NCBI RefSeq assembly: GCF_003443535.1
Contig: NZ_CP031946.1
Location: 186,001-250,000 of the forward strand
Direction: 5' to 3'
Origin: Ruegeria sp. AD91A
GTDB lineage: Bacteria; Pseudomonadota; Alphaproteobacteria; Rhodobacterales; Rhodobacteraceae
Length of the DNA stretch: 64,000 nucleotides
Position 1 is the stretch's first letter. Every line of letters begins with the position of its first letter. This document shows, in pieces, positions 29,651 to 39,540 of the stretch. The notes below the pieces were generated by a model. It was not told the origin of the DNA, did no database searches, and saw only the letters and a list, made by a program, of their open reading frames with translations. A program made the position numbers and the translations under genes.

Positions 29651-30087
29651 CAATTCTCCACCCAGATCGTGACTGGCCCATCATTTACAAGCTCAACCGC
29701 CATGTCCGCGCCGAACTGTCCGGCTTCCACTGCAATCCCCTGCGCGGCAAGGTGCTCTGCGAAGACCGTGTACAACTGCTCTCCCAGCTCAGGCGGGGCT
29801 GCGTTCGAAAATCCGGGGCGATTGCCGCCGGAGGTGTCCGCCGCCAATGTGAACTGGCTGACCACCAAAGCAGAACCTTCAACATCCAGAAGCGAGCGGT
29901 TCATCTTGCCGGCGTCGTCCTTGAAAATCCGCAGTTTCGCGGTTTTCTCGGCCAGTTTTTCTGCCTGTGCCTTGCTGTCGCCCTGCATGGCACAGACAAG
30001 AATCATGAGCCCAGGGCCGGTTGTGCCTATGACGGTGCTTCCGACCGACACTTTGGCCTGTGTCACCCTTTGCAGCAATGCGCGCAC
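29650..30087 (-). CDS. dtd: D-aminoacyl-tRNA deacylase
   Basis: A 145-residue Dtd. Both diagnostic elements are present: [20 protein letters not shown] (~residues 78-97) and the NDGPVTIW cross-subunit motif near the C-terminus. The N-terminal [15 protein letters not shown] is typical. It hydrolyses D-amino acids (and glycine mischarged on tRNA-Ala) from tRNA. It is translationally coupled to the glycerate kinase gene by a one-base overlap. Confidence 0.96.
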
Positions 30088-30129
30088 TTGGTTCCTCCCC
30101 CGAAACGTTGAGCCTGCCTGAGCGACGGT

Positions 30130-30798
30130 TTAGCCGCGCCAGTCCACAAAGTCACCCAATGCCGCGCGCTCCGTACGGAAGCTGTTTGCAGGATGATCCG
30201 TATCCGAATAGCCAAAAGAAATTGCGCACAGGATCAGCCGGTCATCGGGGATCTGAAAATACTGATGCAAAAAAGGACTATATGTGGCCAATGCCGCTTG
30301 CGGGATGGTTGCCACGCCCAAAGCCTGAGCAGCGAGCGCAAAAGCCGTGACAAAGCCGCCGCAATCCATTGCACCATATGGTCCAAGCTCTGCCGGGCTT
30401 GAGATGATGGCACAATGTGGTGCGCCAAACAGGGCAAAGTTCTGCATCATTTGCTGGGCCGATTCCTCGCGGTTCCCCCGTTTTACGCCAACCGCGTCGT
30501 AGAGTGCCCAGCCGCACGTCCGGCGGCGGTCTTGGTACACGCCGGAGTAAGACGTGGGAAATGGAAGATCCGGGGCCGGTGTGCCGTTTTCCGCCTCGTT
30601 TAGCATCGCGTCGCGGAACCTGTCGGTTTCGTCTCCGCTGGTGATGATCAGTTGCCAAGGTTGCGAGTTGCACCAGCTTGGCACCCGGGACGCGCTGGTC
30701 ACGATCTGCGCGATCTGTTCTTGCGGTACCGGGTCCGGCAGAAAGGCCCGGCAGGAATGACGTTTGTCCAGCAAGGCATTCAATTCAGCAATCGACAC
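30130..30798 (-). CDS. Nitroreductase family protein
   Basis: A 222-residue FMN-dependent nitroreductase-fold protein. N-terminal RHSCRAFLPDPVP (FMN phosphate contacts), SRVPSWCNSQPWQLII near residue 40, and C-terminal LGVATIPQAALATYSP and LILCAISFGYSD match the family. It probably reduces quinones, nitro groups or a flavin-linked substrate with NAD(P)H. It lies 42 bp upstream of dtd on the same strand. The natural substrate is not evident. Confidence 0.85.
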   Translation of the reverse strand: MSIAELNALLDKRHSCRAFLPDPVPQEQIAQIVTSASRVPSWCNSQPWQLIITSGDETDRFRDAMLNEAENGTPAPDLPFPTSYSGVYQDRRRTCGWALYDAVGVKRGNREESAQQMMQNFALFGAPHCAIISSPAELGPYGAMDCGGFVTAFALAAQALGVATIPQAALATYSPFLHQYFQIPDDRLILCAISFGYSDTDHPANSFRTERAALGDFVDWRG

Positions 30799-30863
30799 AT
30801 GGACCTCTTCTCAACGTTGCAGGTCTGAGGATGAAGGTGCGGTGTACAATGTACAAGAGGCTG

Positions 30864-31979
30864 TTATTGCTGTCCTGTTGCCATCAAGTACCCGACACCT
30901 GCGGCAACCAGCAGGCCAAGTACAACGGCGATTGTGATCTTTATTGCCGACCAGGGGCGCTCTCCCTGAACCCGACCGGTCCGGCCGTTCACCACGAAAC
31001 GATAGGTCTGGCCGCGATACTTATAGGCCGCCAACCAGACCGGCAGCAGGATATGTTTGAATGTGACATCGCGCACATCGGTGTCCACTGCGTGGATACG
31101 TTGCCTGTCGCCACCAATATCAAAACGTACATCCCGCTCGATCATGCGCGCCATATGTGCTCGGGCCTCGGCATATCCCTCTTTCAGCTCAACCGTATAG
31201 GCCTCGGCGCGAAACCCGGCGAGGTATTCTGGCTGGTAGGGTTCCAGAGCCGGTAGATCCCAAGGCTCCAGAGCATCGGTGTAAGTCTTGGGCAGTGACC
31301 TTGAGGCCAATACCAACACGTCGTCAAAAAAACGCGCCACCCGGCCGGACTTGGGCGTCCAGCGGACTTTTGGCACCTGTTGTTGCACCCGTTTGCCATC
31401 CCGCATGACGGTGCGGGTTTCATAGTAGACTGTGCCGCGCTCTCCGCGATAGGCCGATTTGGTATCGGCATCAAAGGTCCAGTACGGCACGTAGATACCC
31501 TGCATCCTACGTCCTTTGCGGGCATAGTCCTTGAGCCCGTTCGGAGCGAACCACAACCGCCCCAGCCAATCGCTCATCGCCGTGTGGGCCACGCGTTCAT
31601 CCAGAGCAAAAGGCAGAACGCCCTTCGGTTTGATATGTCGGTTCACCCCGGTGTCCGTCACAACCGGAGTAGCGCAGAACGGGCATTCCGCAGCATGGGT
31701 GTTGGGGTCGAATTCAACCTGCGCCGCACAATTTGGGCAGGACAGAACCCGTGTCTCTTCGATTTCGCTGTCGGGCAGGCGGTCGGCGATGGCCGCGTCG
31801 AAATCCAGCTCGCGCAGGCTGGCGCCGCCCCAGGGGCCCGCACCGATCGGTTCGGAATGGCCGCAATGGTCACAGGTCAGCGTGCCGGATTTCGGGTCGA
31901 ACCGATAGTCCGCACCGCACTGGTCACACGGAAAACGGTGTTCCGCGACATCAGGCGATGGGGCAGGGGCATGAGTCAT
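30864..31979 (-). CDS. Zinc-ribbon membrane-associated protein (YdjG-like)
   Basis: Predicted 371 residues from ATG 31979. Two N-terminal zinc ribbons are visible: CDQCGADYRFDPKSG...CDHCG (residues ~17-40) and CPNCAAQVEFDP...CPFC (~80-105). A long middle domain (HIKPKGVLPFALD, YVPYWTFDADTKSAY) and one C-terminal transmembrane helix (IKITIAVVLGLLVAAGVGYL) follow. Proteins of this type are often called PriA or primosomal protein N' because of the zinc ribbon, but no helicase motif is present. It resembles B. subtilis YdjG, which works with an SPFH protein at the membrane. Last gene of the XpaC-TelA-SPFH operon. Confidence 0.75.
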   Translation of the reverse strand: MTHAPAPSPDVAEHRFPCDQCGADYRFDPKSGTLTCDHCGHSEPIGAGPWGGASLRELDFDAAIADRLPDSEIEETRVLSCPNCAAQVEFDPNTHAAECPFCATPVVTDTGVNRHIKPKGVLPFALDERVAHTAMSDWLGRLWFAPNGLKDYARKGRRMQGIYVPYWTFDADTKSAYRGERGTVYYETRTVMRDGKRVQQQVPKVRWTPKSGRVARFFDDVLVLASRSLPKTYTDALEPWDLPALEPYQPEYLAGFRAEAYTVELKEGYAEARAHMARMIERDVRFDIGGDRQRIHAVDTDVRDVTFKHILLPVWLAAYKYRGQTYRFVVNGRTGRVQGERPWSAIKITIAVVLGLLVAAGVGYLMATGQQ

Positions 31980-31986
31980 GACGCGC

Positions 31987-32304
31987 TCAGTCCTTGAGAG
32001 GGAAGTAGAGATAGGCCGCGCGGTTTTCCTCGGGCAGGACATGCGGCAGCATCGCGGCCTCGCAGGCCCCGATCGTCTTGAAACTGTCGCGCCCTTCGGC
32101 CAGCGTCAGGCTATGATTGGCCGCCGAGGGCTCGCGTGGGTTCGTGTCACAATGGATTTTCTCGTCCTCCCAGAAACAGATCGGACAGATCAGGTACTTT
32201 CCGCGCTCCGAAAGGGTGACATAGTCGCAGCAGGGGCAGACGAAATGCGGGCCGGGCCGCGTTCTGCGTCTGACCTTCTTCGTGCGCTTTCCAGGGCCGG
32301 TCAT
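31987..32304 (-). CDS. CPCC family cysteine-rich protein
   Basis: A 105-residue protein with the CPCC family core: FVCPCCDYVTLSERGKY (residues ~21-37) and LICPICFWEDE (~38-48), giving two C-x-x-C knuckles that probably bind one zinc. The N-terminus is strongly basic (KRTKKVRRRTRP). The family has no defined function. Gaps to both neighbours are 7-9 bp, so it belongs to the same transcript as the SPFH and zinc-ribbon genes. Confidence 0.78.
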   Translation of the reverse strand: MTGPGKRTKKVRRRTRPGPHFVCPCCDYVTLSERGKYLICPICFWEDEKIHCDTNPREPSAANHSLTLAEGRDSFKTIGACEAAMLPHVLPEENRAAYLYFPLKD

Positions 32305-32313
32305 GCGGTGCCC

Positions 32314-33462
32314 TCATGTGCCGGGTGGGGGCGGAGGCAGAATGGTGAACAGCTGCGCCAGCTCCTGCACCTCGCCCGCTTTCTTCCATCCGTCCTGACC
32401 AGGCGTCCACACGAAAGTGTCGCGCGTGATCTCGCCGTCGCTGGCCATGCGGCCCATCTTGGCCTTCGAGAACGGGCCGCTGGTCTGTCCGTCCACCGCG
32501 ATATGCCACACATGCTCGACGGGGGGCGGAGGCGGCGGGGCCACATGCGCGGCCGGTTGCGCAGCAGCGGGCGCGGTCGCGCCCCACGGGCCTGACGGCT
32601 GACCCGCTGCCATGTTCGCCATCTGGTTCGCCATCGCCATGCCCATTCCCATGCCAAGGCCAGCGCCCATGCCGCCACCGCCGTTTGGGTTGCTGGCGGC
32701 CGCCGTCATTGCCTCGGCTGCGGAATACTGTGTAAACTTGCCCAGATCACCGGCCAATCCCATCGAGGTGCGCTTGTCCAGCGCCGCCTCGACCGCTGGC
32801 GGCAACGAGATGTTTTCGATATAGAACTCAGGCATCTCGAGCCCGTATCCGTCCAGTACCGGCGACACCTCGGCCGCGATCAGCTTGCCCAGATCGGCGG
32901 TGTTGGCGGCCATGTCCAGAACCGGAATGCCCGACCCCGCGATGACCCGACTGAATTCCTGCACGATGATGTTGCGGATCTGAAAGCTGATCTCGTCCAT
33001 TGTGAATTCACCGTCAGTTCCTACGATCTCGATCAGGAACTTGGCTGGGTCCTTCACACGTACAGTATAAGTGCCATAGGCGCGGATCCGGGTCGGCCCG
33101 AACTCCGGATCGCGCAGCATGATCGGGTTCTTTGTGCCCCATTTCAGGTCGTTGAACCGTGTGGTGTTGACGAAATAAATCTCTGACTTGAACGGAGATT
33201 GAAATCCATGATCCCAGTGCTGCAACGTGGTCAGGATCGGCATGTTGTTTGTTTCAAGCATATAAAGGCCCGGCGTAAACACATCCGCCAGTTGGCCTTC
33301 GTGCACAAAGACCGCCGCCTGACCTTCGCGCACGGTTAGCTTGGCGCCATACTTGATCTCGTGACCTTCGCGCTCGAACCGCCAGACCATGGTGTCACGG
33401 GTGTCATCCACCCAATGAATGACATCAATGAATTCTCCGGTCAGAAAATCGAATATTCCCAT
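32314..33462 (-). CDS. SPFH-domain protein with C-terminal GYF_2 domain (YdjI-like, 'virion core' family)
   Basis: A 382-residue protein. Residues ~25-230 form the SPFH/Band-7-like domain (AVFVHEGQLADVFTPGLY, ISFQIRNIIVQEFSR, IENISLPPAVEAALDKR). A Gly/Met/Ala-rich linker (~250-285) and a Pro stretch follow. The C-terminus (WHIAVDGQTSGPFS to DGWKKAGEVQEL, ~325-375) is a GYF_2/DUF4339 tyrosine-type adaptor domain. B. subtilis YdjI, an SPFH protein of this subfamily, helps localise PspA in membrane stress. Here it sits between a DUF2927 lipoprotein and two zinc proteins, consistent with a membrane scaffold. Confidence 0.85.
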   Translation of the reverse strand: MGIFDFLTGEFIDVIHWVDDTRDTMVWRFEREGHEIKYGAKLTVREGQAAVFVHEGQLADVFTPGLYMLETNNMPILTTLQHWDHGFQSPFKSEIYFVNTTRFNDLKWGTKNPIMLRDPEFGPTRIRAYGTYTVRVKDPAKFLIEIVGTDGEFTMDEISFQIRNIIVQEFSRVIAGSGIPVLDMAANTADLGKLIAAEVSPVLDGYGLEMPEFYIENISLPPAVEAALDKRTSMGLAGDLGKFTQYSAAEAMTAAASNPNGGGGMGAGLGMGMGMAMANQMANMAAGQPSGPWGATAPAAAQPAAHVAPPPPPPVEHVWHIAVDGQTSGPFSKAKMGRMASDGEITRDTFVWTPGQDGWKKAGEVQELAQLFTILPPPPPGT

Positions 33463-33484
33463 TTGGGTTCTCCTGTCCTTGGGG

Positions 33485-34441
33485 TCAGAGCGGCTGCCCC
33501 ATCAGTTCGTGTGCAATAATTCTTACAATGGGTCGTGCTTCGTCGACGTCTACGCCGGGCTGCAGTCGCGGGTCATACAGCATCGTCAGCAGCTTTTCGT
33601 CGTGGCTGGTCAGCAGGGCAAACTCGTCGTCATCATTGAAAATCGAAGGTCGCGCTGCCGGGCTGTCATTGGACAGGCCAAGACCCTGAGCAATTTCTTC
33701 GTGAATGCAGCTTTGGCGGCCCAGATCCGTCAATTCGGCCCGGATAAGGGAAACGGCTCGTACGTATCTGTGTGGTGATGAGGTCGTTGCCGATGCAAAC
33801 ACCAGACAATCGATATTGGCACGTGGATTGGCCACCAGGTTCAGCGAGTCCTGACCGATATTCGGGATCAGCTGCTTCAGGCGGGATACGACATAGGCGC
33901 TGTCGTCCTTGCCTGCAAAAAAGACATGGAAATTGGCGTTGCGAGAGACGACGGAAATCGGATGATCGGTCAATCTGGCCAGACGGGCGGCAAAGGACCG
34001 AACCTGATCTGTGTCTTTCTGCCGTGCAGAGGGAAGCACGGAAGGGCCGAACTCGGTCTGTATGCGCACCGACCCGGACCATCGGCTGAGTTGCCCGTCC
34101 GTCTGACGAGAGCCAACCGCGACGCTCTGCGTCGGATACTCACTGTAGAACGCAATCGCTTCGAAATTCCGCGACAGATCTTCGGTATCATAGGGGGTGT
34201 CGGGGCCGCCCCCATCGATGCGCAAAAGTCCCCGCACCAGCAGGTCCCGTTCAACCCGCCGATAAAAGCGCGCCAGATCCTGACTTGCGGCAGACGGCGG
34301 CACATAAGCATTGGCTGCCACAGGTGCGGGTGCGGGGCGGGGTTGCGGAACAACGGATGACGTCAGGGTCTCATCGCAATTGGCCAGGGCCAGGAATGAT
34401 ACTATCCCCAATGTTCGTTTCAAGTAACCGAAGGCCCGCAC
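33485..34441 (-). CDS. DUF2927 family putative lipoprotein
   Basis: Predicted 318 residues from GTG 34441, which has AAGGGCGGG upstream and lies 13 bp after the telA stop; the frame extends further into telA but without a signal sequence. The N-terminus (RAFGYLKR then TLGIVSFLALANC) looks like a lipoprotein signal, though Asn before Cys is unusual. A Pro/Ala-rich linker precedes the DUF2927 domain (~90-300) with LARFYRRVERDLLVRG at its start and HEEIAQGLGLSND near 255. The latter echoes a zincin helix but has Gln in place of the second His. Function unknown. Confidence 0.7.
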   Translation of the reverse strand: MRAFGYLKRTLGIVSFLALANCDETLTSSVVPQPRPAPAPVAANAYVPPSAASQDLARFYRRVERDLLVRGLLRIDGGGPDTPYDTEDLSRNFEAIAFYSEYPTQSVAVGSRQTDGQLSRWSGSVRIQTEFGPSVLPSARQKDTDQVRSFAARLARLTDHPISVVSRNANFHVFFAGKDDSAYVVSRLKQLIPNIGQDSLNLVANPRANIDCLVFASATTSSPHRYVRAVSLIRAELTDLGRQSCIHEEIAQGLGLSNDSPAARPSIFNDDDEFALLTSHDEKLLTMLYDPRLQPGVDVDEARPIVRIIAHELMGQPL

Positions 34442-34454
34442 GCTGAACCCGCCC

Positions 34455-35645
34455 TTAGCCAGGTACCGCCGTACCGGCATTGTCGCCGGTTCCGTCGCGC
34501 CGTGCCTTGGCAGACGCCAAAGTGTCGCGCAGTTCCTTTTCCATCTTCTGCAACTCAGCTTCGGCTGCGGCGCGTTTGGCCTTGCCTTCGTCCGCAATCG
34601 CAAGGCTTTCGTTGATGGTGCCAATTAGGTCGGCATTGGCCTGCTTGACCGCTTCGATGTCGAACACACCGCGCTCCATTTCTTGGCGGATCATCTTGTT
34701 CGATTCTCGCAGGTTGGCTGCGTTCGAGGTCAAAAGCTCGTTGGTCAGGTCATTGGCATCCCGCACCGCGGCAGCGGCCTCGGCGCTGCGCTGGATCGTA
34801 ACCGCCTGGGCCAGTTGCGTTTCCCAAAGCGGGACGGTGTTCACCAGTGTCGAGTTGATCTTGGTGACCAGCGACTTGTCGTTTTCCTGAACCAAACGGA
34901 TCGACGGCAGCGACTGCATCGTGACCTGTCGTGTCAGTTTCAGGTCATGAACCCGGCGTTCGAGGTCATCGCGTGCCGCGCGCATGTCGCGCAGTTCCTG
35001 CGCCTTCATCACCTGTTGTTCTTCGGGTGCAGCCTGAACTTCGGCTTCTTTTTCAGGGATGGCGTGGCTGTCGAGTTCGGTCAGCTTCTCTTCGCCCGCC
35101 GCGATGTACAGCGCCAGTTCATCATAGAAATCCAAGGTCTTTTCATACAGCAGGTCCAAAGACTTGATATCCTTGAGCAGCGTATGCTCATGCCCCAGTA
35201 GATCGTCGGTAATGCGGTCGATCTGGTCCTGAACGTCTTCGTACTGAGCGGTAAATTTTGCAAATGGTGCAGCTCTGCCCAACAGTTTTTCCCACCAGCT
35301 ACGTTCGCGACGCACGTCAAGTTCACTGACCGAGAACCCGCGTATCGTGGTTACGATGTTGCGCAGGCTGTCACCGGCCGGGCCGACATCCTTGTTGCGC
35401 ACATCCGCCAGCATGGCCTGGCTGATTTCCTGAAGTTCGGCCTGAGCGGACGAGCCAAACGCGACGATCGAATTGGTGTTGTCCATGTCGATTTCATTCA
35501 TCCGCTTGCGGATTTCGGCGCTGACGGGTTCGTCGGCTTCCTCCAGCGACACGACTTCGGCCTGTGGTTCGGGCAGGGCAACTGCGGTGACTTCCTGTAC
35601 CAGAGTTTCGGCCTGAACTGCCTTTTTCTTGATCTCATCGGACAT
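34455..35645 (-). CDS. TelA family (toxic anion resistance) protein
   Basis: A 396-residue, highly helical, cytoplasmic protein of the TelA/KlaA family (PF05816): RSWWEKLLGRAAPFAKF near residue 113, DRITDDLLGHEHTLLKDIKSLD near 145 (at about 35155-35220), YIAAGEEKL, and a C-terminal coiled region ending in a Lys/Ala-rich tail. Relatives are linked to tellurite resistance, and TelA/YaaN-type proteins pair with XpaC in Firmicutes, as here (30-bp gap). The biochemical role is not established; membrane or envelope stress is the common theme. Confidence 0.88.
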   Translation of the reverse strand: MSDEIKKKAVQAETLVQEVTAVALPEPQAEVVSLEEADEPVSAEIRKRMNEIDMDNTNSIVAFGSSAQAELQEISQAMLADVRNKDVGPAGDSLRNIVTTIRGFSVSELDVRRERSWWEKLLGRAAPFAKFTAQYEDVQDQIDRITDDLLGHEHTLLKDIKSLDLLYEKTLDFYDELALYIAAGEEKLTELDSHAIPEKEAEVQAAPEEQQVMKAQELRDMRAARDDLERRVHDLKLTRQVTMQSLPSIRLVQENDKSLVTKINSTLVNTVPLWETQLAQAVTIQRSAEAAAAVRDANDLTNELLTSNAANLRESNKMIRQEMERGVFDIEAVKQANADLIGTINESLAIADEGKAKRAAAEAELQKMEKELRDTLASAKARRDGTGDNAGTAVPG

Positions 35646-35675
35646 GGGGATGTTCCTCGCTCAAATAATGGCCGG

Positions 35676-36590
35676 TCAGTCCAACCGGACGCCTTCGCGC
35701 TGCAGTCTTTCACGCAACACGTCGATTTCGACCGTCAGATCACTGCGGTCATCCAATAACATTTTCCGCGTACGTGCGGAAAAATTCTGCTCCAGATCGT
35801 CCAGCAGGGCGGAATAGTCGGCAAGCGCCTGCGCATCACGGGTGCGCGCGTAGACATCAGCAAACTTGACAGTCGCGTCACGCGCGCCCCGCAGATAGAC
35901 GGTCAGGTATTTTCTGGCTCCGGCCAGATCGCGAGGATCTTCCTCGACCGTGCGGAACAGGTCACGTGCGGTGTCCTGAAACCGCTCCACACGGGCTTCG
36001 ACGCGTCGGTCGCCCGCGCGTTTTATGGCATCCGTCATTTCCGACAACTGTTTCTCGGCATCATCGACCACGCGGGCCACACGGTCTTGCTGATAGGTGT
36101 CGACCCCTTCCATCCCTTTGTCCTTCATCGGATCAAGTCCAAATGAGACAGAGTGCAGAACGGTCGCCGCAACGCCAAACAGTACGGGGGCCAACAGGCT
36201 GACCTGCGCGGCTGCCTCAGCGTCCAGAAACTCGGATCTGTAAGACGCAAGGCCTGCGCCAAGGCCAGTGAGAACACTGGCAAAGATCTTGCGCGGAAAA
36301 GCGGGCCTTCGGGCGGTTTTGCGGGCGTTGTACGCGGCCTCGGCCCTCAGGCCTTCCCGCAGCAAGAATGCGGCCGCCGTCAGAAAACCAGCGGCGATCA
36401 ACCCGATGGTCATGCCAATCGCGCCGTCGTTCAGGGACAGAAACACCAGAGGAATGGCGGGCAGAAACAAAGTATTCGCACGCGCACCAGCGGGCTCGAC
36501 CCGCGCGCCGTCAAACTGACCCCTTGGCAGCGGAGCGTTTTCCGTTTCATCGCCCTGTGGGCTGTATTTACCGCCAAACCGTTTTGCCAT
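35676..36590 (-). CDS. XpaC-like 5-bromo-4-chloroindolyl phosphate hydrolysis family protein
   Basis: A 304-residue protein with a Pro/Gly-rich N-terminus, two hydrophobic hairpins (about residues 40-75 and 105-145), then a soluble helical domain (~180-300) containing DDAEKQLSEMTDAIKR and ARKYLTVYLRGARDATVKF typical of XpaC. The name comes from an X-phosphate hydrolysis phenotype in Bacillus; no phosphatase motif is evident, so the name may mislead. XpaC and TelA are conserved neighbours in other phyla. A 29-codon gene ends three bases before its ATG. Confidence 0.85.
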   Translation of the reverse strand: MAKRFGGKYSPQGDETENAPLPRGQFDGARVEPAGARANTLFLPAIPLVFLSLNDGAIGMTIGLIAAGFLTAAAFLLREGLRAEAAYNARKTARRPAFPRKIFASVLTGLGAGLASYRSEFLDAEAAAQVSLLAPVLFGVAATVLHSVSFGLDPMKDKGMEGVDTYQQDRVARVVDDAEKQLSEMTDAIKRAGDRRVEARVERFQDTARDLFRTVEEDPRDLAGARKYLTVYLRGARDATVKFADVYARTRDAQALADYSALLDDLEQNFSARTRKMLLDDRSDLTVEIDVLRERLQREGVRLD

Positions 36591-36593
36591 GGC

Positions 36594-36683
36594 TTACAGA
36601 CCCCCGAGCAAGCCAGTGCAGACGCCGAACAACAGCACCAGCAGTACAGCGTAGGCCAGTTTTTGCACTCCGCTTCCGGACAT
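36594..36683 (-). CDS. 29-residue single-span membrane peptide
   Basis: An ORF of 29 codons starting at ATG 36683, preceded by a GGGGGG ribosome-type site. The product has a short polar N-terminus (MSGSGVQK) and one hydrophobic span (LAYAVLLVLLFGVCTGLLGG). It ends three bases before the XpaC start, in the right place to be the first gene of the operon and translationally linked to it. It is too short for routine gene calling. Support is the ribosome site, clean membrane topology and spacing; conservation is untested. Confidence 0.55.
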   Translation of the reverse strand: MSGSGVQKLAYAVLLVLLFGVCTGLLGGL

Positions 36684-36765
36684 CACGCCCCCCAAATAGC
36701 AGCTTTCACTGAAAATTTAGGGGATACGCGGGCTTAGCGCTAGGGGGAAGGTTGCCGAACCCGCA

Positions 36766-37581
36766 TCACTTGCGGGGAATCTTGCCGATTTGAGGTCGTT
36801 TTCTTTGTGGCCGTGACGGGCGTTTGGGCGCGTTGTCGGCTTTATCTTCGGAATCCAGACCCAGTTGATCGCGCATGACCCTGCGACGGACTTCTTCGAC
36901 CTCACCCTGTTTCAGAGTCCCCAGCTGGAAGGGGCCGTAGGACACGCGCAACAGTCGGTTCACGGTTAAACTGATATCCTCCATCGCGCGGCGGATTTCG
37001 CGGTTCTTGCCTTCGCGCAAGCCGATCGTCAGCCAGGCATTTGCGCCCTGTTGGCGATCCAGCGACACGGTCATTGTCTGAAATCGCTCTCCTTCGATTA
37101 CCAGCCCCTTGCGCAACGGTTCGAAGTCTTCGTCCTTCGGGCGACCGTTCACTCGCACGCGGTACTTCCGCAACCAGCCAGTCGAGGGCAGTTCAAGCTT
37201 GCGCTTGATGCCGCCATCGTTGGTCAACAGCAGCAACCCTTCGGAATTCAGATCCAGCCGACCGACGCTCATCACCCGTGGCATGTCGTCGGGCAGCCTG
37301 TCGAATATTGTCTCTCGCCCTTTTTCGTCGCTGGTCGTTGTCACCAACCCGGCAGGCTTGTGATACAGCCACAGGCGCGATGGTTCCGGTTCCGAGACCG
37401 GCTTGCCGTCGACTACGATCTTGTCTTTCGCCGTCACGTTCAGGGCAGGGCTGTCAATGGTCTTGCCATTCACTGCCACGCGGCCTGCTTCGATCATGCG
37501 TTCCGCCTCGCGCCGCGACGCTACGCCAGCGCGGGCCAGGACTTTGGCGATCCGATCGCCGGGGGGTGGGGTCTTGTTCAT
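36766..37581 (-). CDS. Large-subunit rRNA pseudouridine synthase (RluB/RsuA family)
   Basis: Predicted 271 residues from ATG 37581. An S4 RNA-binding domain occupies ~residues 8-65 (RIAKVLARAGVASRREAERMI in part). The RsuA/RluB-type catalytic domain follows, with YHKPAGLVTT near 80, the catalytic Asp in SVGRLDLNSEGLLLLTNDG (~112) and GKNREIRRAME near 205. The tail is Lys/Arg-rich. By domain order it is most like RluB (U2605-type sites in 23S rRNA). It is divergent from tadA, 61 bp away. Confidence 0.88.
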   Translation of the reverse strand: MNKTPPPGDRIAKVLARAGVASRREAERMIEAGRVAVNGKTIDSPALNVTAKDKIVVDGKPVSEPEPSRLWLYHKPAGLVTTTSDEKGRETIFDRLPDDMPRVMSVGRLDLNSEGLLLLTNDGGIKRKLELPSTGWLRKYRVRVNGRPKDEDFEPLRKGLVIEGERFQTMTVSLDRQQGANAWLTIGLREGKNREIRRAMEDISLTVNRLLRVSYGPFQLGTLKQGEVEEVRRRVMRDQLGLDSEDKADNAPKRPSRPQRKRPQIGKIPRK

Positions 37582-37642
37582 GTCAGGGCCATACCGCATC
37601 CCGCGCGCTTGCGAAAGGCGGGTTTCTGATGCAGTCAGGGGC

Positions 37643-38107
37643 ATGGTGTTCAAATCGCATATGGAACAGGCCCTGGCCGAGGCGCGCGCAGCGGCTGATC
37701 GCGGCGAGGTGCCCGTGGGGGCTGTTATCGTCGGTCCGGACGGAACCGTTGTGGCGGCGGCTGGAAACCAAACGCGTGAGCTGAATGACCCCACGGCCCA
37801 TGCTGAAATCGTGGCCTTGCGTGCAGCCTGTGCGCAGACGGGGTCTGAACGGCTGCCGGATCACGATCTTTATGTCACGCTGGAGCCTTGCGCGATGTGC
37901 GCAGCGGCCTTGGCGGCCGCGCGCATCCGGCGGATCTATTACGGTGCGGCAGACCCCAAGTCCGGGGGTGTGGCGCATGGTGCACGCGTATTTTCGCATG
38001 CACAGGCGCATCACGTGCCCGAGGTTTATGACGGGATTGCCTGCGAAGACGCCGCCGCACTTTTGAAAGACTTCTTTGCGTCGCGCCGGAAGGACGTGCC
38101 AAGCTGA
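37643..38107 (+). CDS. tadA: tRNA-specific adenosine deaminase
   Basis: Predicted 154 residues from ATG 37643 (GGGG just upstream); ATG 37661 is an alternative. Zinc and catalytic motifs: THAEIVAL (HAE) near residue 53 and TLEPCAMCAAAL (PCxxC) near 84; RRIYYGAADPKSGG is TadA-typical. It converts A34 to inosine in tRNA-Arg(ACG). The longer open frame starting at 37403 overlaps the divergent pseudouridine synthase and is not used. Confidence 0.93.
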   Translation: MVFKSHMEQALAEARAAADRGEVPVGAVIVGPDGTVVAAAGNQTRELNDPTAHAEIVALRAACAQTGSERLPDHDLYVTLEPCAMCAAALAAARIRRIYYGAADPKSGGVAHGARVFSHAQAHHVPEVYDGIACEDAAALLKDFFASRRKDVPS

Positions 38108-38868: not shown

Positions 38869-39540
38869 ATGGACTGGATTCGAGAAATCGATGGCTATTG
38901 CGAACGCTTGTCGGCGGACTATTGGGCCGAGCCGATCAATGCGATCACAAACGCTGCTTTTCTGATTGCCGCATGGATCATGTGGCGGCGCGTACGCGAT
39001 CAGGACATGCCACTGGCCAAGGGTCTGGTCGTGATTCTGGCCATGATTGGGATCGGCAGCTATCTGTTTCACACCCATGCCAGGGTGTGGGCGGCATTGG
39101 CGGATGTGGTGCCGATCCTGCTGTTCATATTGGTCTATATATATGCGGTGAACCGGGACATCTGTCGCATGTCGTCTGGATTGGCCTTCGTCGGTATGAT
39201 TCTGTTTCTTCCCTATGCGGCGGCCGTTGCACCATTGTTCCAACGTGTGCCAGGGATTGGTGGGTCGGCGGCTTATGCGCCGGTCCCTTTGTTGATCCTG
39301 ATCTACGCGTTCCTGCTGCGGGGCAATGACCCGAACTTGGCCAGAGCGATGACGCTCGGGGCCCTGATCCTGATTCTATCCATCACTTTCCGTGCGCTCG
39401 ATTTGCAAATTTGCAAGCAATGGCCGATGGGGACGCATTTCATGTGGCATATCCTGAATGCCATCATGCTGGGTTGGATGATCGAGGTGTATCGCGCGGC
39501 CTTCATCAGGGGCCGTTTCGACGATGGCCTTGGGCCTTGA
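38869..39540 (+). CDS. Ceramidase-like membrane hydrolase (CREST superfamily)
   Basis: A 223-residue protein with about seven hydrophobic segments. The metal-site pattern of the alkaline ceramidase/CREST superfamily is visible: SYLFHTHARVWAALAD (Ser-x3-His ... Asp, ~residues 64-79) and THFMWHILNA (His-x3-His, ~185-194). The N-terminal YWAEPINAITNAAFLIAA also fits family PF05875. Bacterial members are thought to be membrane-embedded hydrolases, but a ceramide substrate is not implied. It is a single gene between UPF0173 and DUF4202. Confidence 0.78.
   Translation: MDWIREIDGYCERLSADYWAEPINAITNAAFLIAAWIMWRRVRDQDMPLAKGLVVILAMIGIGSYLFHTHARVWAALADVVPILLFILVYIYAVNRDICRMSSGLAFVGMILFLPYAAAVAPLFQRVPGIGGSAAYAPVPLLILIYAFLLRGNDPNLARAMTLGALILILSITFRALDLQICKQWPMGTHFMWHILNAIMLGWMIEVYRAAFIRGRFDDGLGP

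Follow-up and report, generated by a model that had tools for sequence, protein, structure and literature searches.

A Conserved Operon of Rhodobacteraceae Joins XpaC-TelA to an SPFH/Zinc-Ribbon Pair and May Protect the Inner Membrane

The question raised by a cluster of seven genes in Ruegeria sp. AD91A is whether proteins known from separate bacterial stress systems have been brought together there in one conserved operon and, if so, what that operon does. The cluster lies in a 64,000-nucleotide stretch of contig NZ_CP031946.1 (positions 186,001 to 250,000), referred to here as the window, in a genome of 4.4 Mb and 2 contigs. A first-pass annotation, made from the window sequence, had read it as one envelope-stress operon in which XpaC and TelA are combined with SPFH and zinc-ribbon proteins without PspA. 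Bacterial membrane-stress biology centers on PspA, which in Bacillus forms the YdjFGHI system with YdjG, YdjH, and YdjI; SPFH/YdjI proteins are associated with membrane microdomains and are partners of PspA. TelA and XpaC are linked to envelope and tellurite stress, and XpaC-YaaN and the TerC-TelA yce operon are stress modules. The kinds of protein encoded in the cluster are thus known, but we know of no published description of their arrangement.

Results

The seven open reading frames, as read from the sequence, occupy positions 30864-36683, all on the minus strand. In the order of transcription they encode a 29-residue peptide, XpaC, TelA, a DUF2927 protein, an SPFH protein that ends in a GYF_2 domain (SPFH-GYF2), a CPCC protein, and a zinc-ribbon membrane protein designated ZnTM. 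With the starts chosen here (GTG at 34441 for DUF2927 and ATG at 31979 for ZnTM, longer frames existing for both), the successive gaps are 3, 30, 13, 22, 9, and 7 bp, in agreement with the 3-30 bp of the first-pass annotation. The features are as follows.

36714..36749, minus strand: promoter-like element, TTCCCCCTAGC-N19-TAAATT, directly 5' of the operon; conserved
36594..36683, minus strand: 29-residue single-pass membrane peptide, recognized by its own hidden Markov model and codon pattern; Pfam blank
35676..36590, minus strand: XpaC family (PF10112, 2.6e-29), hydrophobic over residues 48-81 and 126-154
34455..35645, minus strand: TelA family (PF05816, 7e-108), without hydrophobic segments and, in a model of moderate confidence, all-helical
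33485..34441, minus strand: DUF2927 protein (PF11150, 3.6e-56), with an N-terminal hydrophobic stretch and a conserved Cys22
32314..33462, minus strand: SPFH domain (Band_7_1, PF13421, 1.4e-101) with C-terminal GYF_2 (PF14237, 4.3e-22)
31987..32304, minus strand: CPCC cysteine-rich protein (PF14206, 2.1e-22); accessory
30864..31979, minus strand: ZnTM, with two N-terminal zinc ribbons, a middle domain, and a C-terminal hydrophobic segment at residues 342-370

Conservation within the family Rhodobacteraceae was followed in two sets of loci, one fetched from 60 of the 133 same-family genomes with TelA, and therefore selected by TelA, and one of 80 named loci found by SPFH, which are the best 80 of 583 and so are biased to close relatives. 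The sets overlap, with at least five genomes in common and four named loci identical to members of the 60. The order XpaC-TelA-DUF2927-SPFH-ZnTM on one strand is present in 53 of the 60 loci and, the peptide and CPCC again being left out of the count, in 73 of the 80 (69 of 76 when the four duplicates are removed). This recurrence argues against a chance arrangement, and the prospect raised in the first-pass annotation of an order unique to this strain was not borne out. Among the seven exceptions in the first set, two have no DUF2927 match (L035 and L050; loci are numbered L and genomes G), two end at DUF2927 (L058 and L071), and three have XpaC-TelA only (L047, L052, and L089, the last interrupted by a contig end); XpaC is present in all 60. 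The closest SPFH sequences among the best 80 of the 583 named ones are from Ruegeria and Silicibacter, with 93-97% identity. The CPCC gene, which the first-pass annotation had counted as part of the operon, was found in 1/60 and 1/80 loci; it is accessory and was rejected as a core component.

The two halves of the operon also occur together across genomes. Of 149 genomes of the family, 133 have TelA and 134 match PF13421; the match is strong (E < 1e-80) in 132 and weak in two, G059 and G122. TelA and strong SPFH are both present in 131 genomes and both absent from 15; three are discordant (TelA alone in G098 and G122 and SPFH alone in G119), giving agreement in 146 of the 149. The corresponding Fisher p value is 1.5e-17, which is not an independent-trial probability since the genomes are related. 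By a hand count from the tables, TelA and SPFH are close on one contig in 123 of the 131 genomes with both; the remaining eight are G004, G018, G062, G064, G082, G083, G085, and G110, some of which perhaps reflect contig breaks.

Outside the family, the operon is seen in parts. TelA is above its cut-off in 25/289 genomes of a class sample and 45/299 of a phylum sample, both of which include same-family genomes. XpaC-TelA-SPFH-ZnTM without DUF2927 was found in 5 of 20 class-level loci (L096, L097, L099, L100, and L109), which span four other alphaproteobacterial families, and the SPFH proteins of L096, L097, L099, and L109 are 52-59% identical to that of the window. It should be noted that the gene models were trained on the family and that TelA was missed or half-missed in several distant loci, so that absences there are weak. 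In one of the 17 phylum-level TelA loci, L126, the protein that comes after XpaC-TelA matches GYF_2 and, below threshold, Band_7_1. A different arrangement is seen in the alphaproteobacterial loci L098 and L103, where TelA is followed by a solute-binding plus VWA protein and then by XpaC.

Of 18 proteobacterial loci around strong SPFH matches elsewhere, 14 have ZnTM as the first match following SPFH on the same strand (three of the ZnTM matches are weak, and L138 has a further SPFH piece in between); neither TelA nor XpaC is among the genes listed around these 18. SPFH/ZnTM pairs on Vibrio and Tsukamurella plasmids match both models, and both have GYF_2. ZnTM is the partner that follows SPFH outside Rhodobacteraceae also, in a two-gene unit with the same order as in the window and with no TelA, XpaC, or DUF2927 seen beside it. 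Because SPFH-ZnTM is found elsewhere without TelA and XpaC, SPFH-ZnTM and XpaC-TelA seem to have been separate modules before they were joined; in this family they make up a single conserved unit that probably has one promoter. A 1.46 Mb plasmid of Paracoccus ferrooxidans (L233) carries TelA-DUF2927-SPFH-zinc ribbon followed by a carbohydrate kinase; the annotated protein just upstream of its TelA does not fit the XpaC model.

The suggestion of a single promoter comes from a sequence upstream of the peptide gene, TTCCCCCTAGC followed at fixed spacing by TARRTT. Among 121 upstream sequences, this 11-mer is exact in 42 and has one mismatch in 11 (53/121), and nearly all of the 53 carry TARRTT at the fixed spacing, L201 being without the second half. 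A relaxed pattern, derived from the same sequences on which it was then run, occurs in 51 of 169 TelA loci, once in each and always 5' of XpaC (of TelA in the rearranged L168), with no match inside the cluster or on the other strand. By set, these are 18/60 and 33/80 loci (51/140 for the family) and 0/40 loci outside it. The first-pass annotation had placed both modules on one transcript; a conserved unit whose element stands only at its 5' end is consistent with this, although joint transcription is a conclusion drawn from arrangement. The element may be a dedicated promoter or operator. The 118 loci without this form of it, which include 24 of the 26 with a TerC gene (the two with it are L086 and L183), must start otherwise. 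The exact 11-mer has one copy in the genome, versus 2 for a reversed control, so a wider regulon is not indicated by exact match, looser forms not having been searched genome-wide. General scans of positions 30000-37800 were uninformative: one sigma-70 site, in the DUF2927 start region, versus a mean of 1.9 in shuffled sequences, and nine terminator-like sites versus 8.3.

The 29-residue peptide at the head of the operon has no match in Pfam. A hidden Markov model built from nine copies was refined on copies upstream of XpaC, and its training is therefore partly circular, but other segments were free to match. At E < 1e-4 it gave 114 matches in the 55,714 segments taken from 140 loci, and 103 of these matches, in 103 loci, are directly upstream of XpaC; when duplicates are removed, which leaves 136 loci to search, there are 110 matches, 99 of them at an XpaC start. 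The other 11 matches (E < 0.01) are all in XpaC-bearing loci, nine of them between the copies in loci with two XpaC genes, and in 25 of 135 XpaC loci the first model was blank or matched only above E 0.05. Two tandem XpaC-like genes precede TelA in L062, L064, L065, L070, and L089, where the peptide match lies about 1 kb past the start of the first. Codons were compared over 18 positions in pairs of peptides with at least 75% identity. In 163 pairs, there were 497, 178, and 1118 differences at codon positions 1, 2, and 3 and 978 synonymous versus 493 nonsynonymous codon changes (423, 148, and 935, and 812 versus 421, in the 136 pairs left after removal of duplicates). From this codon-position and synonymous bias, the peptide looks like the product of a conserved protein-coding gene under purifying selection.

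The DUF2927 protein is a probable lipoprotein, as judged from its N-terminal hydrophobic stretch and conserved Cys22. It had been listed in the first-pass annotation as a lipoprotein without a named function, but modeling predicts a matrixin (matrix metalloproteinase, MMP), or metzincin, fold with altered zinc ligands. In a register that we infer from the conserved glycine, the motif EExxQxxGxxN of DUF2927 takes the place of the zinc motif HExxHxxGxxH of the matrixin (M10) metallopeptidases, from which it differs. In 35 DUF2927 sequences, Glu248, Glu249, Gln252, Gly255, and Asp259 are invariant and Asn258 and His247 are conserved in at least 90%; 54 of 55 matches have HEExxQ..G..ND and one has EExxHxxG..NH. 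The protein is thus predicted to be, probably, an inactive relative of collagen-cutting enzymes. A second DUF2927 gene is present in the same genome (G000:C1:756590-757189).

For the remaining proteins, hydrophobic segments were detected in XpaC and, as a single C-terminal segment, in ZnTM, and none were detected in TelA or SPFH. Searches of solved structures with the SPFH sequence returned one entry at E 3.6e-6, matched through the GYF region, and two more at E 0.04; those with TelA returned none below E 0.18. In Pfam, ZnTM has zinc-ribbon matches only, one of which is above its cut-off.

The absence of PspA, a central feature of the first-pass annotation, holds for the operon, the window, and most of the family but not for the genome as a whole. 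A single match to the PspA family (PF04012) lies at G000:C1:1770939-1771607, outside the window and ∼1.5 Mb from the operon; a TetR-type regulator is upstream of it, and a small membrane protein with a sub-threshold YiaAB match is downstream (L001:1161-2855). PspA is above its cut-off in 22 of 100 family genomes, this one included, and the two best scores are from genomes without TelA and SPFH (G022 and G089), although two cases prove nothing. No neighbor was labeled PspA in the lists for L093-L132 and L133-L150 and no match was found in L151-L230, a weak test because the model came from one divergent sequence.

Discussion

The operon resembles several known systems without coinciding with any of them. 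It shares with Bacillus YdjFGHI the pairing of a Band_7_1 SPFH protein (PF13421 also matches in a Bacillus subtilis control) and a zinc-ribbon membrane protein, but it has no PspA and is joined to XpaC-TelA, DUF2927, and the small peptide; also, its SPFH protein ends in GYF_2, whereas zinc ribbons stand at the end of a clostridial relative (L235). What supports the likeness of ZnTM to YdjG proposed in the first-pass annotation is the zinc ribbons and one membrane helix, which make it at most a candidate homologue. XpaC and TelA are adjacent on one strand, as in the XpaC-YaaN module, and TerC, a component of the yce operon, was not found among the six operon proteins scanned here but is sometimes just upstream in relatives; both modules are extended here by SPFH-GYF2, ZnTM, and DUF2927 in one order.

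The reading that we favor, at about even odds, is that this conserved operon, the merger of two older modules, encodes an assembly for surveillance and stabilization of the inner membrane and so protects it, a role suggested by analogy with those of TelA/XpaC in stress and of SPFH/YdjI at membranes. In the first module, XpaC would lie in the membrane with TelA, a long helical protein, on its cytosolic face as a membrane-anchored scaffold. In the second, SPFH-GYF2 would be peripheral and is expected to oligomerize on the membrane as a patch, held on the cytosolic face by ZnTM as a tail-anchored zinc-ribbon adaptor. In this family the two modules would be joined by the short peptide, encoded first in the transcript and placed in the membrane, and by the secreted DUF2927 pseudo-matrixin, which would bind to the periplasmic side or signal its state. 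Gene content and order, co-occurrence, the coding signature of the peptide, the 5' element, and the predicted folds come from computation; from them we infer the joint transcription, physical assembly, and sub-cellular placement of the products. A more specific version, which is put forward only tentatively, is a PspA-independent machine centered on Rhodobacterales, with its own promoter, in which a TelA-XpaC helical scaffold is coupled through the tail-anchored adaptor to SPFH-GYF2, the ∼30-residue peptide is a sensor or regulator of membrane state, and the inactive matrixin lipoprotein is a periplasmic sensing arm.

Three points are added here to the first-pass annotation: the peptide as a conserved coding gene, the predicted matrixin fold of DUF2927 with its altered zinc ligands, and the promoter-like 5' element. 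In the family sample, which includes many marine Roseobacter-type genera, PspA is in the minority while TelA is near-universal. Should membrane protection prove to be its role, the operon would account in part for the ability of these bacteria to do without PspA, would supply a set of genetic partners for three little-understood families (TelA, XpaC, and DUF2927), and would contribute a conserved membrane protein so short that gene finders may overlook it.

An alternative, which appears unlikely, is that the operon handles metal, as the combination of TerC, TelA/XpaC, and zinc ribbons might suggest: its main task would be homeostasis of metals or oxyanions, or the supply of metal to exported proteins, with membrane protection secondary. 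A TerC-family gene lies directly before XpaC on the same strand, at a distance of 37-299 bp, in all 12 TerC-bearing loci of the 60 and in 13 of 14 of the 80, and zinc-ribbon and CPCC proteins are encoded in the window. However, TerC was found neither among the six operon proteins scanned with Pfam nor among the scanned neighbors, and not in most loci; furthermore, zinc ribbons are usually structural, and DUF2927 is without the matrixin zinc histidines in register.

It is quite improbable that these are separate stress genes kept side by side by vertical inheritance in the family, with no shared machine. Other neighbors are retained: a pseudouridine synthase, which we take to be RluB, lies 82 bp upstream of the operon on the same strand, and homologues of RluB, TadA (a name likewise presumed for the flanking gene of relatives), and DTD are present in 54, 51, and 40 of the 60 loci, with RluB upstream on the same strand in 46. 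The modules are also separable, as seen in L130-L132 and in the SPFH-ZnTM pairs outside the family. Mere adjacency, however, does not readily account for the agreement of TelA and SPFH across genomes, joint absences included, for an element at the 5' end only, or for the core being kept in four other families (five loci), in whose fetched stretches no RluB or TadA match was found (the L109 contig stops just before XpaC).

An anti-phage or abortive defense system is very improbable, because the near-universal distribution in the family is unlike that of defense islands and PADLOC gave nothing convincing for the six operon proteins (one weak match, to the DUF2927 protein, E 0.006), even though one Vibrio plasmid carries a related SPFH-ZnTM pair next to a group of genes that includes one for a TIR-domain protein. 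In that plasmid, from Vibrio coralliilyticus (L234:1-7154), the SPFH-GYF2/ZnTM genes are divergent from those with a TIR domain and weak WD40-like matches, and the pair might be a defense-linked version.

Accessory genes keep constant positions in and around the operon in its relatives, which favors the main reading. TerC, as noted, nearly always directly precedes XpaC where it occurs. Where a cytochrome b561 gene occurs, it is between SPFH and ZnTM (19/19 loci of the 60 and 23/23 hits of the 80), and a PfkB kinase gene follows in 20 of the 60; one representative each of TerC (PF03741), cytochrome b561, and PfkB was checked by Pfam. In the window, a nitroreductase gene is downstream of the operon, and a gene for a Ceramidase (PF05875) protein lies nearby on the plus strand at 38869-39540.
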